This document shows positions 39,631-52,945 of a stretch of DNA of 64,000 nt, one piece after another (within the stretch, counting starts at the first letter, position 1; each line of letters opens with the position of its first letter). The position numbers and the translations under genes are program-made. The notes beneath the pieces are model-generated. The model ran no database searches. It was not told the origin of the DNA and was given only the letters and a program-made list of their open reading frames with translations. Source of the DNA: Methanogenium organophilum. GTDB taxonomy: Archaea; Halobacteriota; Methanomicrobia; Methanomicrobiales; Methanomicrobiaceae. The stretch spans positions 2,356,001-2,420,000 of the forward strand of contig NZ_CP113361.1 in the NCBI RefSeq assembly GCF_026684035.1. The letters run 5' to 3'.

Positions 39631-39670
39631 GTATACATTAGTACGTTCGTCGAATATTCAGCAATCGGAT
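39631..39670 (-). promoter_or_regulatory. Island element A (shared promoter-like element)
   Basis: This copy reads gtatacattag, then tacg, TTCGTCGAA, then tattcag on the plus strand; it acts toward the minus-strand gene that starts 52 bases away. A TTCG-N-CGAA dyad and a GAATATTC palindrome are its core. Confidence 0.7.
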
Positions 39671-41529: not shown

Positions 41530-41570
41530 GTATACATTAGTACGTTCGCCGAATATTCAGTGATCGGATG
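41530..41570 (-). promoter_or_regulatory. Island element B
   Basis: It carries gtatacattag, TTCGCCGAA and tattcagtgatcgg, 53 bases before the start of the propeller gene, almost the same distance as in copy A. About 45 bases of leader between element and gene are also shared with copy A. Confidence 0.72.
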
Positions 41571-43370: not shown

Positions 43371-43521
43371 ATGTTTACCTCCGTTTTATCAGGAGGTAAA
43401 CCATGAAATCAGCTCCAAATACTATCGAAGGCAATGAGTTTTGCCTCCGTGCAGTGCGGGGTTCATATGACTGTGTGAAATGAGGTGAACTCCCGACTAC
43501 AATTTATCGTTGTATCTTCAG
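43371..43521 (-). promoter_or_regulatory. Structured leader, copy C, with perfect 10-bp hairpin over the ribosome site
   Basis: The leader matches copies D and G at most positions. Here the ribosome-binding sequence is part of a perfect inverted repeat, GTTTACCTCC (43373-43382) with GGAGGTAAAC (43392-43401), nine bases apart. The stem would bury the GGAGG site. Confidence 0.65.
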
Positions 43522-43561
43522 GTATACATTAGTTCGTTCGCCGAATATTCAGTGATCGGAT
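43522..43561 (-). promoter_or_regulatory. Island element C
   Basis: It carries gtatacattag, TTCGCCGAA and tattcagtgatcgg, 152 bases before the decayed start at 43370. The same spacing is seen for copies D and G. Confidence 0.72.
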
Positions 43562-43669
43562 GAATGTATACCAACACGGAAAAAACGCATTTTTGCTGCT
43601 TAAACGAGTTGCAGAACAGACAATGGGATCCGGGAAAAATAATTGGAGAGTGGGTAGAACCCTGTTTTC

Positions 43670-43948
43670 TTATGCAATACATACAGTAGAGATGTACATC
43701 ACTCCTCCAAGGAGCAGATACTGCCCGTCTGCTATGAGGTCATACAACACTCTGCTGAGTTCGGCTCCGTTGAACAAAATAATATAACTCTGTACATAAA
43801 TCGCGATACCGGCAATGATTGCCGTTTCGACAATTGAGAGATATCCGTTGCAAAGAACGAGAATAATCCCGATACCCATGGCGTTCATTACTGACAGAAG
43901 GATTCTGGTCTTCTGTATCCCAAGGATCACAGGGATGGTCTTTACGCC
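43670..43948 (-). pseudogene. 3' fragment of a UbiA-family gene (copy C)
   Basis: About 280 bases nearly identical to the 3' end of the intact UbiA gene, keeping the frame and stop; the encoded 93 residues match its C-terminus from TIPVILGI onward. Homology ends at about 43948, ten bases from the end of the CcdA-fusion gene, which marks a recombination joint. The fragment has no catalytic DxxxD motif, so it should be inactive. Confidence 0.82.
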
Positions 43949-43957
43949 CAACCGGAT

Positions 43958-44962
43958 TTACATCCAAAATAGCAACCAGAACCCAAACCCAATCAGGATA
44001 ATCCCACTAACAGCTTTAATTACATTCCTGTGTTCTCTAATTTTGTTCGACGAGCTATATCCCCCGATGATCCCGACTCCAATAAATGGCGTGAGCACTC
44101 CGGCCCCAAAGACCAGTAAGAGTGACAAATCCTGTACCGTGCCATCAATTAGGATTTTGCTCAGCAATATGAGTATCATTGGTGCCGCACATGGAGCCTT
44201 GACGATTGAAAACAACATACCCAGAAAGAATAAACCAGCCAGAGTGGCAGAATACTTCCGAACAGAGGATTGAATAAAGGTGTTTGTGTCAATAGGAATT
44301 CTTAACAACCCAATAAGGTTTACCCCAACAAGTATCGTGATTACCCCTGCCACGATAGTGAGGCATGGACCGAAACCACCGAGCGACATTCCCGCGAGCA
44401 GGACGCAACTCCCCATAAAGATATACGCGGCAACCAGCCCCAGGCCGAATGTCAGTGAATTTAGTATACTATTTCTCAATCCCTTGCCCGAACCTGTGAC
44501 ATATGCCAGTATAAATCCCAATATTGCCATCAAGCAGGGCGAGAAACCGGAAAAAAGCCCGAATGAATACGCAAGCGGGATGTCCCAGTCTATATCAGAA
44601 GGAATTTCCCCCCTATCAGTTTCTGAAAGAGCACGCTCAATTGCTGCCCTGATGTTTTCTTCGGTGATTTCCTCTTTGGGAATTTTTATGGTGCCGTTCA
44701 CAACCACGGCCGGGACTTCGAGAAATCCATGTGGTTTCCATCTTTCCCATCCTTCCAGAGTACCGGTGTCGATCCATTCGATAGTCAGGGTACCGTCATA
44801 GGCATTTTCCAGATCTGCAATCAGTGGATCGGTAATCTTGCAGTCCGAGCATCGATCCATATGATAGTATTCAAGGAAAATCGTTGAGGCACCAACTGTG
44901 GAAATGCACAGTATGCAAATGATGAATAGAATGGCAATTATATGTGGTACTTTTACGGTCAT
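43958..44962 (-). CDS. Thioredoxin-CcdA fusion (extracellular thiol redox protein)
   Basis: The 334-residue protein has an N-terminal signal or anchor helix, a thioredoxin-like domain with active-site Cys38-Ser-Asp-Cys41 and the cis-proline region FLEVPAVVV, then a CcdA/DsbD-type membrane domain with the paired cysteines in FSPCLMAI and KAPCAAPM. Such proteins carry electrons across the membrane to reduce or reshuffle disulfides outside. It is the last gene of the run starting with the Cys-rich precursor at 47125, so handling of that precursor's 12 C-terminal cysteines is its likely task (inference). Confidence 0.85.
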   Translation of the reverse strand: MTVKVPHIIAILFIICILCISTVGASTIFLEYYHMDRCSDCKITDPLIADLENAYDGTLTIEWIDTGTLEGWERWKPHGFLEVPAVVVNGTIKIPKEEITEENIRAAIERALSETDRGEIPSDIDWDIPLAYSFGLFSGFSPCLMAILGFILAYVTGSGKGLRNSILNSLTFGLGLVAAYIFMGSCVLLAGMSLGGFGPCLTIVAGVITILVGVNLIGLLRIPIDTNTFIQSSVRKYSATLAGLFFLGMLFSIVKAPCAAPMILILLSKILIDGTVQDLSLLLVFGAGVLTPFIGVGIIGGYSSSNKIREHRNVIKAVSGIILIGFGFWLLFWM

Positions 44963-45039
44963 GATTTTACCGACCTCCAGAGAGCCGTGCAGATCGTATC
45001 ATTCACCCTCAGCACAATCCACAAACCATCCATCGGCCA

Positions 45040-45663
45040 TCAGTCCATTTCATTCCGTGCAAACCGTTTTTCCCACATTAATAGGACAACAATGGAAACA
45101 ATCCCGACGAGTATGAGTCCTCCAAGGATGGGGATAACGGGATACTCTAGTATCAGATAGCGCAGAAGAATTATTGCGGATACTATGAAGTAGAAGACAA
45201 CCCATCGCACGAGATTAACACGATATTTACCACGTTCGATAAAGATAATACGCGTCAATAGTATGCCGATGATAACAAGGGCGAGGAACCAGAAGATCTG
45301 GTTGACGGAAGATACGAGGGATGCATAGAGATATATCAAAAAAACCGCGACGACAAGAACGGCATCGACCACCTTCTCAATGACGGCTCTTCTCTGCTTT
45401 GTATCTTTTTCTCCGTGTCCCTCCAGTTGAAGGGCGTGACGGAGGATATTCGTGATGGTGGGGTCAGCCAGATGTTCCTTTCGTCTATACCACACCATGA
45501 GAAGAAAGTGCGTTGCAGTGGGAACCAATGCCAGGAGGAATATGGAAGATAGTGGTAACGGCAGGTACCCCTTCACGACGAGGATGCCGATAACAAGAAA
45601 TGATACAAAATACACTGCAACTGAACGCCACATTTCCTCTTTGATGATATAATCTATTTTCAT
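45040..45663 (-). CDS. Six-helix membrane protein, candidate immunity factor
   Basis: A 207-residue integral membrane protein with about six helices and a cytoplasmic charged loop (about 60-92). I do not recognise a family. It overlaps the LolA-like lipoprotein gene by four bases and precedes the thioredoxin-CcdA gene by 77. Small polytopic proteins beside secreted peptide precursors often give self-protection, so an immunity role is possible but unproved. Confidence 0.72.
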   Translation of the reverse strand: MKIDYIIKEEMWRSVAVYFVSFLVIGILVVKGYLPLPLSSIFLLALVPTATHFLLMVWYRRKEHLADPTITNILRHALQLEGHGEKDTKQRRAVIEKVVDAVLVVAVFLIYLYASLVSSVNQIFWFLALVIIGILLTRIIFIERGKYRVNLVRWVVFYFIVSAIILLRYLILEYPVIPILGGLILVGIVSIVVLLMWEKRFARNEMD

Positions 45664-46328
45664 ATGTACACCTCAGACGCACCATAGGGGACGGTAAAAG
45701 AAAACTCGTCATCGTTTGTTATGGAATTTATAGAGTAATTTCGATATTCGAGGGATAATACCAAATTGCCCTCATAGTAACTCTGCAGTTTCAACGGGAT
45801 CAAATTATTTGAATCGATCCATACAAGGTACTCCCTTGCACTCCCGTTGTCCAGCTCATGAGGAATCAGTTTCACTCTATAGACCTGAGTTGAGTTGATC
45901 GATTCCATTTCTGGATCTTCTATGGTGTATTTTTCAGTAATGTTAGTCATAAATGTATAGATCGCAGGCTCCGGTATCTTCTCTGATGGAGTCTGATTCC
46001 TTATCAGCACAACATTTTTGATAGGATCATAGATTCGGATTTCTTCTCCATTTGAAACGATCTCCGAGTGTGTGAAGGAGCCGCTCCTCTCAATCCTTCG
46101 GAACTTATCCGGCTTCTTCAAACGTACATCATACTCAACAGTTCTCGTTTCATTCCCGATGTACATAGTAAGTGTTTCGATGTACGCTAAGCTCTCGATG
46201 TTTTGCTGACTCTCTGTAACTTTTTCCAGAAGCGTATTTGCATCAATATCTGAATCCATACAACCAGAACAAATAAACGCAAATACTACGATAATCAACA
46301 TGAATTGGGTGTGCCATTGTAACTTCAT
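45660..46328 (-). CDS. LolA/RseB-like lipoprotein
   Basis: A 222-residue lipoprotein with lipobox ICSGC (Cys at about 23) and a beta-rich domain of the LolA/LppX/RseB fold type (LAYIETLTMYIGNETRTVEYDVRLKKPDKFRR; YLVWIDSNNLIPLKLQSYYEG). Such domains bind lipids or hydrophobic molecules outside the membrane. It follows the Cys-rich precursor by 35 bases, so it could carry or hold the hydrophobic product. Confidence 0.8.
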   Translation of the reverse strand: MKLQWHTQFMLIIVVFAFICSGCMDSDIDANTLLEKVTESQQNIESLAYIETLTMYIGNETRTVEYDVRLKKPDKFRRIERSGSFTHSEIVSNGEEIRIYDPIKNVVLIRNQTPSEKIPEPAIYTFMTNITEKYTIEDPEMESINSTQVYRVKLIPHELDNGSAREYLVWIDSNNLIPLKLQSYYEGNLVLSLEYRNYSINSITNDDEFSFTVPYGASEVYI

Positions 46329-46363
46329 CTAATCCACCGTAAAAAAGAAGGTATTTGCCTCAT

Positions 46364-47125
46364 TTATAGGCAAGTTCCCATACACCACGCTATCTCTACC
46401 CCCATACAAACCGCAGCAGGTGCACAGGTATACGGGCTTGGCATATAATAGCAGGGTGTCAACAACGCTACACATATGTCGCAGATTGGAATTCCTGGTG
46501 GGCAGGGGATTCCCAGAATCGCACAGAGACAATCCCCAATGATGCAACTGGAAACACAGTCCCAGTAACCATCTTCTTCTGTTGCGAAGAACTGTTCTGG
46601 CATTCCTTCAGCCAAGGCACCGCCATCGATTATAATTTCTTCAATTACGTCTCCATTGCTGTCGATTCTGCTAAACGTAAGTTTATTCAGGGATTTGTCC
46701 TGATACGTACTTGTGTACTTGAGTACCCGAGCCCCATCATTGTCCCATACTGCAATAACATTCGACGTCTGAATGGAGTCGCCATTGTCGATAATAGATT
46801 CAACGGGCAATACGACAGCAGTTATCTGTTTAACTGATCCATCGTCATACTTCTTCTCGAGAGAAAATGCCTTGGCGTTGTCGACGATCATACTCAGATC
46901 TTCGGAACGCGGGATTCCCGAAAGTTTTCGCACATCGTTCAGATTCAAAGCAGAAGCAACAGCCTCGTACTTTTCCAAGCCCGATAGATCGGTTTGCCCC
47001 ATCTTTTGTTTGACATCGCCACAAGATGTACCAGGTACACAAGCCATTGCCGGCACCATCACCATGCTGACCAGCAGTAACGCCAGCAGCACAGACAGTA
47101 ACCGGGTTCTGAATTTCATTTTCAT
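46364..47125 (-). CDS. Secreted halocin C8-like precursor with Cys-rich C-terminus
   Basis: The 253-residue protein has a signal peptide (MKMKFRTRLLSVLLALLL, ending near AMA), an N-terminal domain (about 30-180) and a C-terminal 67-residue segment (187-253) with 12 cysteines, short hydrophobic runs and an LCAILGI stretch like the ICGLLGI of halocin C8. Halocin C8 is cut from the C-terminus of a precursor whose N-terminal part gives immunity; the same layout is likely here. ATG at 47125 has GGAGG seven bases upstream. It heads the operon with the LolA-like, six-helix and thioredoxin-CcdA genes. Confidence 0.7.
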   Translation of the reverse strand: MKMKFRTRLLSVLLALLLVSMVMVPAMACVPGTSCGDVKQKMGQTDLSGLEKYEAVASALNLNDVRKLSGIPRSEDLSMIVDNAKAFSLEKKYDDGSVKQITAVVLPVESIIDNGDSIQTSNVIAVWDNDGARVLKYTSTYQDKSLNKLTFSRIDSNGDVIEEIIIDGGALAEGMPEQFFATEEDGYWDCVSSCIIGDCLCAILGIPCPPGIPICDICVALLTPCYYMPSPYTCAPAAVCMGVEIAWCMGTCL

Positions 47126-47280
47126 ACTTTTTCCTCCGTTTTTCGAACCGGAGGTAAACCATGACAACAGCCTCAAATAGTATTGAAACCAATGAAGTTT
47201 TGCCTCCGGGCAGTGCGGGGTTCATCTGACTGTGTGAAAGGAGGTGAACTCCCGACTACAATTAACTCTCATCTTTTTTA
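47126..47280 (-). promoter_or_regulatory. Structured leader, copy D, ribosome site in a hairpin
   Basis: The GGAGG site of the precursor gene can pair with CCTCC upstream (CCTCCG at 47133-47138 and CGGAGG at 47149-47154 on the plus strand). A second GGAGG/CCTCC pair lies farther up (47203-47207 with 47240-47246), so alternative pairings are possible. About 85-90% of positions look shared with copy G by eye. Confidence 0.65.
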
Positions 47281-47320
47281 GTATACATTAGTTCGTTCGC
47301 CGAATATTCAGTAATCTGAT
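47281..47320 (-). promoter_or_regulatory. Island element D
   Basis: It carries gtatacattag, TTCGCCGAA and tattcagtaatctg, 155 bases before the halocin C8-like precursor gene. Confidence 0.72.
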
Positions 47321-47424
47321 GTATGTATACTGACACGGAAAGCAACGCTCTTTTGCGGCTCATACGATTTTCAGAACAAATAATAGAATCCTGTGAAATA
47401 AGAAACGGGTTTTAGCCCCGCCCC

Positions 47425-48324
47425 TTATGCAATACATACGGTGGAGATGTACATCACTCCTCCAAGGAGCAGATACTGCCCGTCGGCAATGAGGTCATAC
47501 AGCACTCTGCTGAGTTCGGCTCCGTTGAACAAAATAATATAACTCTGTACATAAATCGCGATACCGGCAATGATTGCCGTTTCGACAATTGAGAGATATC
47601 CGTTGCAAAGAACGAGAATTATCCCGATACCCATGGCGTTCATTACTGACAGAAGGATTCTGGTCCACGGAATTCCAAGGATCACAGGGATAGTCTGCAC
47701 GCCTGTCTCGGCGTCGCCCCGTACATCCCGTATGTCAAATACCGTTGAATCGATAAATGACAGGAGAAAGAAGAAGAGCCCCATTGCAATTGTCATCTCC
47801 CCAAGGGGAATTCCTGCGCATGCAACCGGCAGAAGTGCGACCGGAAGCGCCCAGGCAAGTCCCACAATGAAGTTTTTCACAAAGGGGATGTCCTTCAGGC
47901 GACGGTACCTGAACCTGTCGGGCAGAAACGGTATGCTGTATAAAATTCCGTTTACGAGGGGTATGGCGGTGATTACCGCTGCCATAATCCCGTACATCCC
48001 TGCTATCAGAAATGCAACAACGTATGCGGCAAGGGATAAATACATAAGACTGTTTATATGTTTTTTCGTGAACGCATAACGTTTGGAATGGTTGATTGCA
48101 TCTTCATCCTCGTCTGTTTTCCTGTTCAGGTTGTATACCGAAAAGGTGACAAGGAACATGATAACGCATGACGCCGGAGATACCGGTATGTCCTGTAGCA
48201 CAGAAGACAGGTAAACCATTGAAACGGCGGCAATGCAGAGATACAAAGAGCTGTACAAAATTGTATCAAACAATGACTGAAGATTCAGCTCACTGTTTCC
48301 GGGGGTATGCTCGAATTTGAACAT
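47425..48324 (-). CDS. UbiA-family membrane prenyltransferase
   Basis: UbiA enzymes transfer polyprenyl groups to aromatic or polar acceptors in the membrane. The 299-residue protein has about eight helices and both Asp-rich motifs, NLNRKTDEDED (about 66-76) and DIRDVRGDAETG (about 197-208). The acceptor cannot be told from sequence. It has its own copy of the island element 25 bases upstream, and its 3' end has been copied twice elsewhere in the island. Confidence 0.88.
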   Translation of the reverse strand: MFKFEHTPGNSELNLQSLFDTILYSSLYLCIAAVSMVYLSSVLQDIPVSPASCVIMFLVTFSVYNLNRKTDEDEDAINHSKRYAFTKKHINSLMYLSLAAYVVAFLIAGMYGIMAAVITAIPLVNGILYSIPFLPDRFRYRRLKDIPFVKNFIVGLAWALPVALLPVACAGIPLGEMTIAMGLFFFLLSFIDSTVFDIRDVRGDAETGVQTIPVILGIPWTRILLSVMNAMGIGIILVLCNGYLSIVETAIIAGIAIYVQSYIILFNGAELSRVLYDLIADGQYLLLGGVMYISTVCIA

Positions 48325-49938: not shown

Positions 49939-49978
49939 GTATACATTAGTACGTTTGATGAATATTCGGTGATCTGAG
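49939..49978 (-). promoter_or_regulatory. Island element F
   Basis: It reads gtatacattag, then TTTGATGAA, then tattcggtgatctg, 23 bases before the propeller lipoprotein gene. The dyad core is changed from TTCG-N-CGAA and imperfect here. Confidence 0.66.
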
Positions 49979-50920: not shown

Positions 50921-51856
50921 TTATGAAATATATGTCCATCCTGTATCGGTGAAATATGTCTGTACAGGAGGGAAATATAACGGCCCAACTTCTGCGATGT
51001 GGCCACCTGTTGTCTTATAATTACCCGACGAAAGAACTGTGTATGCGAAACCGGCCTTCATTTCATATACATTGCAGCCATCCTTATAATCAAGGGCATA
51101 TGTTATTCCATTGTCTTTTTCCAAATCAGATGCAACGGACATGTAAGGAATTGTATACCAGGGATTTGGAAGCCAAACTCTGCTATATGATTCAAAATCC
51201 ACAGTCATTGAAAATAATCTCTGGTTAAGAGACGATTCGGGATGCACAACAATAAAAGGCAGACCGTCCAATAATTGTTGTTCTTCCGTTTGGTCGTTCG
51301 TGGATAAACCAGTATTCTGATCCTCTGAGCATATGAATGGCTGTTGGTAAATAAACTGTTTTGTGCTTTCAGACATACCATTTAATGCATCTGGAAAAAC
51401 GTTTTCAAGAAATTCTCCGGTTGTAATATGTTCACCCTTAAGTTCATTGTATACCTTCAGTTGCTCTTCACTTGCAGTAAATGAATGTCCTTGCTTCACA
51501 TCGTCTCTGGATATTTCTTTAATTTCATATTTTACCGTCGTTGGAATATACTCATTATTTTGTCCTTTCATCATTTGAGATGTCGAAGATAAATCCGCAG
51601 TATATCCAATTTTAGATAATTTCAACAGTGTTGAATCAATTTTCTCTACAGATTGCATTATTTTTTGATGGTCTTGCACGGATACGGCCTGATTGTAGTC
51701 AATAACTTGTTCATCAAGAAGTTCAGTCAATGACGTTTTTATGATTTCTGTGTCATTACTCTCTTGCTGCGCACTCCCCGCCGACACCATCACCACGCTC
51801 ACCAGCAGCAACGCCAGGAGCACGGAGAGTGCCCGCATTTCAATTCTTTTTTTCAT
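50921..51856 (-). CDS. Secreted protein sharing leader and signal peptide with the halocin C8-like precursor
   Basis: The 311-residue protein has a signal peptide almost the same as that of the precursor at 46364-47125 (SVLLALLLVS core) but an unrelated mature part: a helical Gln/Glu/Ser-rich N-terminal half and a beta-rich C-terminal part (VWLPNPWYTIPYMSV, GFAYTVLSSGNYKTTGGHIAEVG). It has only a few cysteines and no Cys-rich tail. The ATG at 51856 has GGAGG seven bases upstream inside a hairpin. Function unknown; a secreted effector is a reasonable guess. Confidence 0.78.
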   Translation of the reverse strand: MKKRIEMRALSVLLALLLVSVVMVSAGSAQQESNDTEIIKTSLTELLDEQVIDYNQAVSVQDHQKIMQSVEKIDSTLLKLSKIGYTADLSSTSQMMKGQNNEYIPTTVKYEIKEISRDDVKQGHSFTASEEQLKVYNELKGEHITTGEFLENVFPDALNGMSESTKQFIYQQPFICSEDQNTGLSTNDQTEEQQLLDGLPFIVVHPESSLNQRLFSMTVDFESYSRVWLPNPWYTIPYMSVASDLEKDNGITYALDYKDGCNVYEMKAGFAYTVLSSGNYKTTGGHIAEVGPLYFPPVQTYFTDTGWTYIS

Positions 51857-52010: not shown

Positions 52011-52071
52011 GTATACATTAGTACGTTTGCCAAATATTCAGTAGATTGAAGAATATTCAGTGATCTGCTGA
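52011..52071 (-). promoter_or_regulatory. Island element G, with a repeated outer half
   Basis: It reads gtatacattag, then TTTGCCAAA, then tattcag, and the tattcag part is repeated 21 bases farther out before tgatctg. Compared with the other copies both arms of the dyad changed together (TTCG/CGAA to TTTG/CAAA). It lies 155 bases before the secreted-protein gene. Confidence 0.7.
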
Positions 52072-52129: not shown

Positions 52130-52945
52130 TCAGATGATGGTAAATTCTTCTGATATTTCCCGGTAATACGAAAAGAGACGATCACCCCATGCAAGGGCCG
52201 GACTGTCAGTGGCGATGAGGTCGCTTGAGATATCGTACTTGAAATCATCATTCCTGCACAGCCCGAATGAGAGGGTTGCATTGGTCACCGTCAACCCGAT
52301 ATAAAGAGGCATGGGCGCCACATATACCCTGAAGTGATTATAGCCTTCAATCTCTTTGATCTTACTCAGAAACGGTTCTTTCCTGAGTTCTTCAGCGATC
52401 TCTGAGTTCACCACCATCTCCACATGTACTCCTTCCTTCACCTTCGTAATGAGGGCATCTGCATGGTTGTGGCTCATGAAAGAGGAGACGACAGATATCC
52501 GTTCGGCATCTGCAATCATCTCGAAAAAACACTCAAGGACGGAAAAAATATCGGTATTGCTGGTTTCGACAATCGTGGAATTATAGAGGTCGCCGATGTC
52601 ACGCAGGAACGGGGCAGGAAGTACTTCAAGATAATGTGTGGACCAGAATTTTGGATTTTTACTGAAAAGGTATCCTGCTCTGATATGATCCTGTACCTGT
52701 GATGAAATGACCTTTCCCTGAGGGGTCAGATAATAGGCGTCGTCACGGTAGTGAATATAGTGTACTCCCTCCAGAAACCGAATCTTTGGAAGGAGTGTCT
52801 GTGAAGTAGTGTCGGTCACATCACGAAGTTTTGCGAGAGTTTTGCCTCCCTCACTCAATGAGATCATGATCTGCAAAAGCAGCCGTGACCTGAACAGCTT
52901 CTGGATGCCATCCTGGTATGTATTGAAAATCTCAAGCGTGTCCAT
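52130..52945 (-). CDS. Winged-helix regulator with FilR1-type (DUF1724) domain
   Basis: The 271-residue protein has an N-terminal winged helix (about 10-80, RSRLLLQIMISLSEGGKTLAKLRD then TTSQTLLPKIRFLE) and a C-terminal domain of the kind found in methanogen regulators such as FilR1 (middle domain DUF1724), with SVVSSFMSHNHADALI and PLYIGLTVTNATLSFGL. It lies at the upstream edge of the island in the same direction and is a candidate regulator of the shared elements, though it has no element of its own. Confidence 0.82.
   Translation of the reverse strand: MDTLEIFNTYQDGIQKLFRSRLLLQIMISLSEGGKTLAKLRDVTDTTSQTLLPKIRFLEGVHYIHYRDDAYYLTPQGKVISSQVQDHIRAGYLFSKNPKFWSTHYLEVLPAPFLRDIGDLYNSTIVETSNTDIFSVLECFFEMIADAERISVVSSFMSHNHADALITKVKEGVHVEMVVNSEIAEELRKEPFLSKIKEIEGYNHFRVYVAPMPLYIGLTVTNATLSFGLCRNDDFKYDISSDLIATDSPALAWGDRLFSYYREISEEFTII

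Follow-up and report, generated by a model that had tools for sequence, protein, structure and literature searches.

The 64,000-nucleotide stretch of the Methanogenium organophilum genome analyzed here (the window; GCF_026684035.1, NZ_CP113361.1, positions 2,356,001 to 2,420,000 of the forward strand; positions below follow window numbering) contains a four-gene operon encoding an exported precursor with a cysteine-rich tail, a lipoprotein, a six-transmembrane (six-TM) protein, and a thioredoxin-CcdA fusion. This locus is probably a modular archaeocin-type operon, in which the precursor of an exchangeable disulfide-rich peptide is accompanied by its own membrane thiol relay. The computational evidence consists of the gene order and its conservation, the pro-domain family of the precursor, the diversity of the tails, the cysteine pairs of the CcdA fusion, and the paired loss of tail cysteines.

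The operon and its products

Read 5' to 3', the genes encode the precursor (253 amino acids; 46364..47125), a LolA/DUF2092-type lipoprotein (45660..46328), the six-TM protein (45040..45663), and a fusion of an extracytoplasmic thioredoxin-like domain to a CcdA/DsbD membrane domain (43958..44962). All are codirectional on the minus strand and are separated, in that order, by 35 bp, a 4-bp overlap, and 77 bp, which makes cotranscription of the four genes plausible. The precursor open reading frame (ORF), supported by orthologs and by its pro-domain family, starts with ATG at 47125, and GGAGGAAAAAGT precedes this codon. A preliminary description of this DNA had listed the four ORFs, and all of them are present, on the minus strand and tightly spaced.

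The precursor begins with a Sec-like signal peptide (residues 1 to 28; MKMKFRTRLLSVLLALLLVSMVMVPAMA) that ends in VPAMA-C and lacks a twin-arginine motif. The pro-domain (residues 29 to 187; 46565..47041, minus strand) was delimited by HHalign kinship and a low-confidence model, and it carries a CX5C pair at the mature N terminus. An acidic E-D-x-Y-W stretch that is invariant among orthologs immediately precedes the tail (residues 188 to 253; 46367..46564, minus strand), a putative released peptide defined by ortholog alignment. The tail has 66 residues, is hydrophobic, and has a CX3C motif at each end; the preliminary count of 12 cysteines in residues 187 to 253 is accurate. The precursor model, of low confidence (pLDDT 56), shows a helix pair (residues 49 to 69) followed by a six-strand meander. 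The precursor matched no family in Pfam or NCBIfam, and a sequence search for solved-structure relatives returned none. Because many matches of a full-precursor profile within the order reflected only a shared signal peptide, signal peptides were cut away before any family claim was made. A near-identical signal peptide (MRALSVLLALLLVSVVMVPA) was found on many secreted proteins with unrelated bodies (50921-51856 in the window; L005, L006, L007, L009, L012, L013, L015, and L019), and the upstream leader TGCCCGGAGGCAAA is in part common to the same proteins. This pattern of leader and signal looks like a 5' cassette copied between genes.

The lipoprotein belongs to PF09865 (LolA/DUF2092; 34.5 bits, cutoff 21.2) and scores 26 bits with LolA_like, below that model's cutoff of 30; its lipobox cysteine (C23) is invariant in the alignment of homologs. 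The thioredoxin-CcdA fusion exceeds the cutoffs of both PF13386 (43.9 bits, cutoff 24.9) and PF02683 (41.5 bits). It has an external C38-x-D-C41 motif, and C143 and C258 lie in the membrane domain. These four cysteines are invariant in seven aligned homologs, and judged from the sequence their layout is that of a working CcdA/DsbD relay. The six-TM protein has 207 amino acids, six predicted membrane segments, and no cysteine. It was assigned to no family, its structure model is of poor quality, and it is a candidate immunity or transport protein.

Precursor orthologs that are 60 to 74% identical occur in other Methanomicrobiales. The complete gene order recurs in about eight operons, two of them not intact, from seven genomes; six of these are Methanomicrobiales, and G176 belongs to another family of the phylum. 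Besides the window, these are JAAZOW010000116 (L021), Methanoculleus sp. FWC-SCC3 (L022), a second FWC-SCC3 copy that seems to be divided over two contig ends, those of C6 and C10 (L023 and L132), G045 (L024), G030 (L025), G455 (L096), and G176 (L141). Damage is evident in some copies: the G030 precursor carries a frameshift near residue 30, the coding sequence of the G045 fusion is spread over two frames, and that of L022 stops 17 residues short. The preliminary description held that the lipoprotein, membrane, and thiol-redox genes form a set with the precursor and named their separation in relatives as a reason to abandon that idea; the genes stay together.

The tail cysteines were compared across eight orthologous tails. 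Cysteines 199, 201, 208, 215, 218, 225, 234, and 240 are kept in all of them, while cysteines 190 and 252 are jointly absent from L022 and G030 and cysteines 194 and 248 are jointly absent from G176. The cysteine count is even in every ortholog, and the losses couple the first cysteine with the last and the second with the second-last, a nested arrangement. Nested, paired loss is what would be expected of two disulfides clamping two end helices; with only two independent loss events, it is suggestive of this pairing and not proof of it.

The pro-domain family and its tails

Across 393 genomes of the phylum, the NCBIfam model TIGR04449 (halocin_C8_dom; 69 positions, cutoff 24 bits) picked up domains in 40 at an E value of ≤0.1 (25 above the cutoff), in haloarchaea as well as methanogens. 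Several methanogen precursors with such domains are followed by the same kinds of genes as in the window: LolA-like and six-TM genes in G326, a LolA-like gene with either thioredoxin-CcdA or six-TM in G198 and G184, and thioredoxin-CcdA in G266 and G237. In view of these loci, the earlier statement that halocins are known mainly from haloarchaea has to be revised, and the maturation set is not confined to the window operon.

With signal and tail removed, the window pro-domain family gave an HHalign value of 97.7% with the pro-domains of a second class of methanogen precursors, which carry another kind of tail, and of 84 to 86% with those of the TIGR04449-tailed methanogen precursors. The three sets of tails borne by these related pro-domains gave mutual values that were all ≤0.5%. 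In haloarchaea, the N-domain of the halocin C8 precursor ProC8 is HalI, an immunity peptide (PMC11509114), and, going by the title of Mei et al. (2008, cited in PMC11509114), immunity requires a helix-loop-helix at the N terminus of HalI; in the low-confidence window model, the helix pair at residues 49 to 69 stands ahead of the strands. A pooled pro-domain profile aligned over 73 columns with the ProC8 N-domains of haloarchaea, with an HHalign value of 94%. In this comparison, unrelated alignments from the locus reached at most 0.6%, and none of 40 column-shuffled controls exceeded 0.1%. The window pro-domain is thus related to HalI, through intermediates only.

The pro-domain profile, searched without signal or tail over the 393 genomes, matched in 28 of them. 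At least eight cysteines were present in the last 90 residues of 30 of the 32 pro-domain ORFs examined; for the other ORFs of these loci, the figure was 6 of 377. Among 15 ORFs from loci outside profile building, 13 were cysteine rich, each with 10 to 16 cysteines in this C-terminal stretch. In length, spacing, and sequence alike, the tails are very unlike one another, and the genes frequently found downstream encode a small protein with three or four TM segments, a LolA-type or other anchored protein, and thioredoxin-CcdA. Nothing else argues as strongly as these counts for placing the window gene in a system in which a constant pro-domain is paired with variable disulfide-rich peptides.

The tails may also have moved between lineages. 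The window precursor is 67% identical to that of G176 in the tail and 42% in the pro-domain, and the corresponding values for L096 are 51% and 66%. These identities are suggestive of tail exchange; unequal rates would give the same result, and trees built from a few short rows do not resolve the two.

Other precursors were seen at several loci. In G176, a second precursor (L141:10442-11122) with another 12-cysteine tail directly follows the operon and precedes a LolA-like gene and a broken thioredoxin-CcdA gene, forming a precursor array. G158, from another family of the phylum, has two adjacent cysteine-rich precursors (L093:4465-5517 and L093:6287-6910) that share one different pro-domain and carry unlike tails, one of them TIGR04449; they represent a second modular family. 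In G178, a 130-amino-acid cysteine-rich protein without the usual pro-domain (L156:5989-6381) lies ahead of LolA-like and six-TM genes. Its tail scores 7.4 bits on the window tail profile, versus -0.2 for its own shuffles.

Locus history and upstream element

A direct repeat of about 556 bp flanks the operon, with segments of 280 nucleotides (nt) at 95% identity, 146 nt at 87%, and 51 nt at 80%. Copy 1 (43392..43948, minus strand), a leader plus a UbiA 3' fragment, abuts the end of the thioredoxin-CcdA gene; the UbiA fragment encodes 93 amino acids (43670-43951) and is 96% identical. Copy 2, located by repeat alignment (47150..47703, minus strand), comprises a leader plus the 3' part of the intact UbiA gene. 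In three genomes of the same genus, a gene for a FilR1-like regulator adjoins UbiA, with uvr genes nearby and no operon between them. Given the repeat and these empty sites, the operon most likely entered next to UbiA through a recombination event that duplicated the UbiA end. No integrase was seen in the operon. The phage and plasmid collections searched with the precursor held no relative and so gave no hint of a mobile carrier. Within the window, neither Rfam nor a tRNA scan gave a match, and PADLOC detected nothing. The damaged copies, the patchy occurrence, and the insertion suggest that the operon is gained and lost rapidly, and the empty sites, flanking repeat, and frameshifted relatives fit the turnover expected of conflict genes.

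Upstream of the operon lies the element TTCGGCGAACGAACTAATGTATA (47282..47304, minus strand), likely a common promoter or operator. It has 10 copies in the genome, compared with no matches for the reversed control pattern, and the earlier suggestion that the operon stands under a shared upstream element is borne out. Its core, ACTAATGTATA, occurs six times on the minus strand of the window (39632-39642, 41531-41541, 43523-43533, 47282-47292, 49940-49950, and 52012-52022). Copies of the core or of the whole element precede several genes of this neighborhood; on these grounds, the operon probably joined an existing regulon. A FilR1-like regulator is encoded at 52130-52945, among the element copies, and together with the genes that these copies precede it may form a local regulon.

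Proposed function and comparison with known systems

From these features, we infer cleavage of the precursor, disulfide pairing, antimicrobial action, and roles for the lipoprotein and the six-TM protein, as follows. The precursor would be exported by its Sec-like signal peptide, and the HalI-related pro-domain would keep the hydrophobic tail harmless or folded. The tail could form up to six disulfides, aided by the thioredoxin-CcdA fusion. CcdA proteins move electrons outward, so the simplest role for the fusion would be the reduction or shuffling of wrong tail disulfides, perhaps via the CX5C pair of the pro-domain. By bringing reducing equivalents across the membrane, it would most likely act as an isomerase or reductase. 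The tail would then be cut off near the E-D-x-Y-W stretch, probably after it, and the released peptide would attack the membranes of competing archaea. The LolA-type lipoprotein may act as a chaperone for the hydrophobic peptide or protect the producing cell, and immunity or export may fall to the six-TM protein.

Several points weigh against this model. The antimicrobial activity of the tail peptide is itself something that we infer, and the tail has no characterized relative. The window family alone gave 2.4% against the HalI N-domains, so the link of its pro-domain to HalI rests on the intermediates. Fold searches returned no match at an E value of <0.001, a result that says little because the model used was weak (pLDDT 56). 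Finally, the six-TM gene is only loosely tied to the precursor: at roughly 20 of 30 loci, in many methanogen genomes, it has no precursor within about 7 kb. Solitary six-TM genes suit an immunity gene kept by nonproducers, and they suit a general membrane protein as well.

Alternatively, the tail could stay attached and serve outside the cell in redox reactions, metal binding, or cross-linking of the envelope, receiving electrons from the thioredoxin-CcdA protein. This would explain the presence of that protein in the operon, the CX5C pair at the mature pro-domain N terminus, and the lack of a protease gene. However, the same pro-domain bears unlike tails, including halocin C8 domains, which is unexpected for a single structural or redox task. 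No metal-binding pattern is conserved across the tails, the presence of the operon is patchy, and its insertion is recent. We regard this alternative as unlikely.

The preliminary description took the 67-residue tail for a halocin C8-type domain with an LCAILGI core like that of halocin C8. A divergent domain of this kind would account for the similar precursor type and accessory genes, and the window tail and one methanogen TIGR04449 tail share the short match C-A-(I/L)-L-G-I-P. However, at E values up to 10 TIGR04449 matched neither the window precursor nor the isolated tail, it had no match in their own genome, and the profile search proposed earlier for residues 187 to 253 thus came back empty. 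On a profile that we built from 22 TIGR04449 domains, the window tail scored 5.2 bits and the orthologous tails lower, whereas 700 shuffled tails reached up to 9.0 bits and ten members left out in turn scored 21 to 66 bits. HHalign gave 0.3 to 2.2% for the tail against C8 domains, compared with 97.9% for methanogen against haloarchaeal C8 domains as a positive control. The cysteine patterns also differ: the window tail has 12 cysteines with CX3C at both ends, whereas C8 domains typically have 10, with CxxC first and an LC ending. The profile, shuffle, and leave-one-out results rule out the tail as a TIGR04449 domain, and a divergent C8 domain is very improbable. Because the tail fails the profile, shuffle, and HHalign comparisons, LCAILGI is no evidence of kinship. 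"Halocin C8-like" thus describes the pro-domain and accessory genes and not the tail itself.

A secreted peptide for population sensing rather than a weapon has equally little to recommend it: diverse exported disulfide-rich peptides with downstream membrane proteins could be pheromone-receptor sets, and a FilR1-like regulator and common upstream element are nearby, but 12 cysteines and this length are unusual for pheromones, the operon has no sensor kinase, and related systems are antimicrobial (halocin C8, PMC11509114).

To our knowledge, nearly all archaeal peptide antibiotics established by experiment are from haloarchaea and Sulfolobales. In 2019, Makarova et al. reportedly widened the halocin C8 family to take in diverse archaea as well as some bacteria; if so, methanogen-encoded C8-type peptides are not a new idea. 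What seems to be new is the non-C8 tail class, thioredoxin-CcdA as a recurrent operon partner, and the demonstration by counting that unrelated cysteine-rich tails can be predicted from the pro-domain. Bacterial bacteriocin loci also combine secreted disulfide peptides with dedicated thiol-disulfide oxidoreductase genes, which serves here as an analogy only. More tentatively, and with slightly less than an even chance of being right, we propose that archaea from methanogens to haloarchaea hold widespread modular weapons in which one pro-domain family, many unrelated disulfide-rich peptides grafted onto it, and a dedicated membrane thiol relay follow a polymorphic-toxin-like logic at peptide scale, the window peptide being of a type not described before. 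If this is true, a common pro-domain carries a varied set of disulfide-rich peptides in methanogens, a set that can be predicted computationally, and the pro-domain profile and CcdA fusion offer a direct handle for finding them. It would then be testable how anaerobic archaea fold disulfide-rich proteins outside the cell and how they compete in digesters, sediments, and guts.

In its membrane-domain cysteine pair and its external thioredoxin-like domain of the CxxC type, the fusion resembles DsbD/CcdA proteins (PF13386, PF02683). It differs from them in its N-terminal thioredoxin domain and C-x-D-C motif, and its gene travels with cysteine-rich peptide precursors. The operon shares with the methanogen TIGR04449 precursors (G326, G198, G184, G266, and G237) a pro-domain family and downstream thioredoxin-CcdA, LolA-like, and six-TM or small TM proteins; their tails are genuine halocin C8 tails, whereas the window tail is not. 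Like halocin C8/ProC8, the window system has an exported precursor, a pro-domain, and a cysteine-rich hydrophobic C-terminal peptide, with pro-domains related through intermediates. Unlike that system, its tail is nonhomologous and has 12 cysteines instead of 10, and its signal peptide is not of the twin-arginine type. Sun et al. report in the title of their 2005 article (cited in PMC11509114) that the single gene of ProC8 directs both production and immunity, whereas the window has a four-gene operon with its own thioredoxin-CcdA protein.

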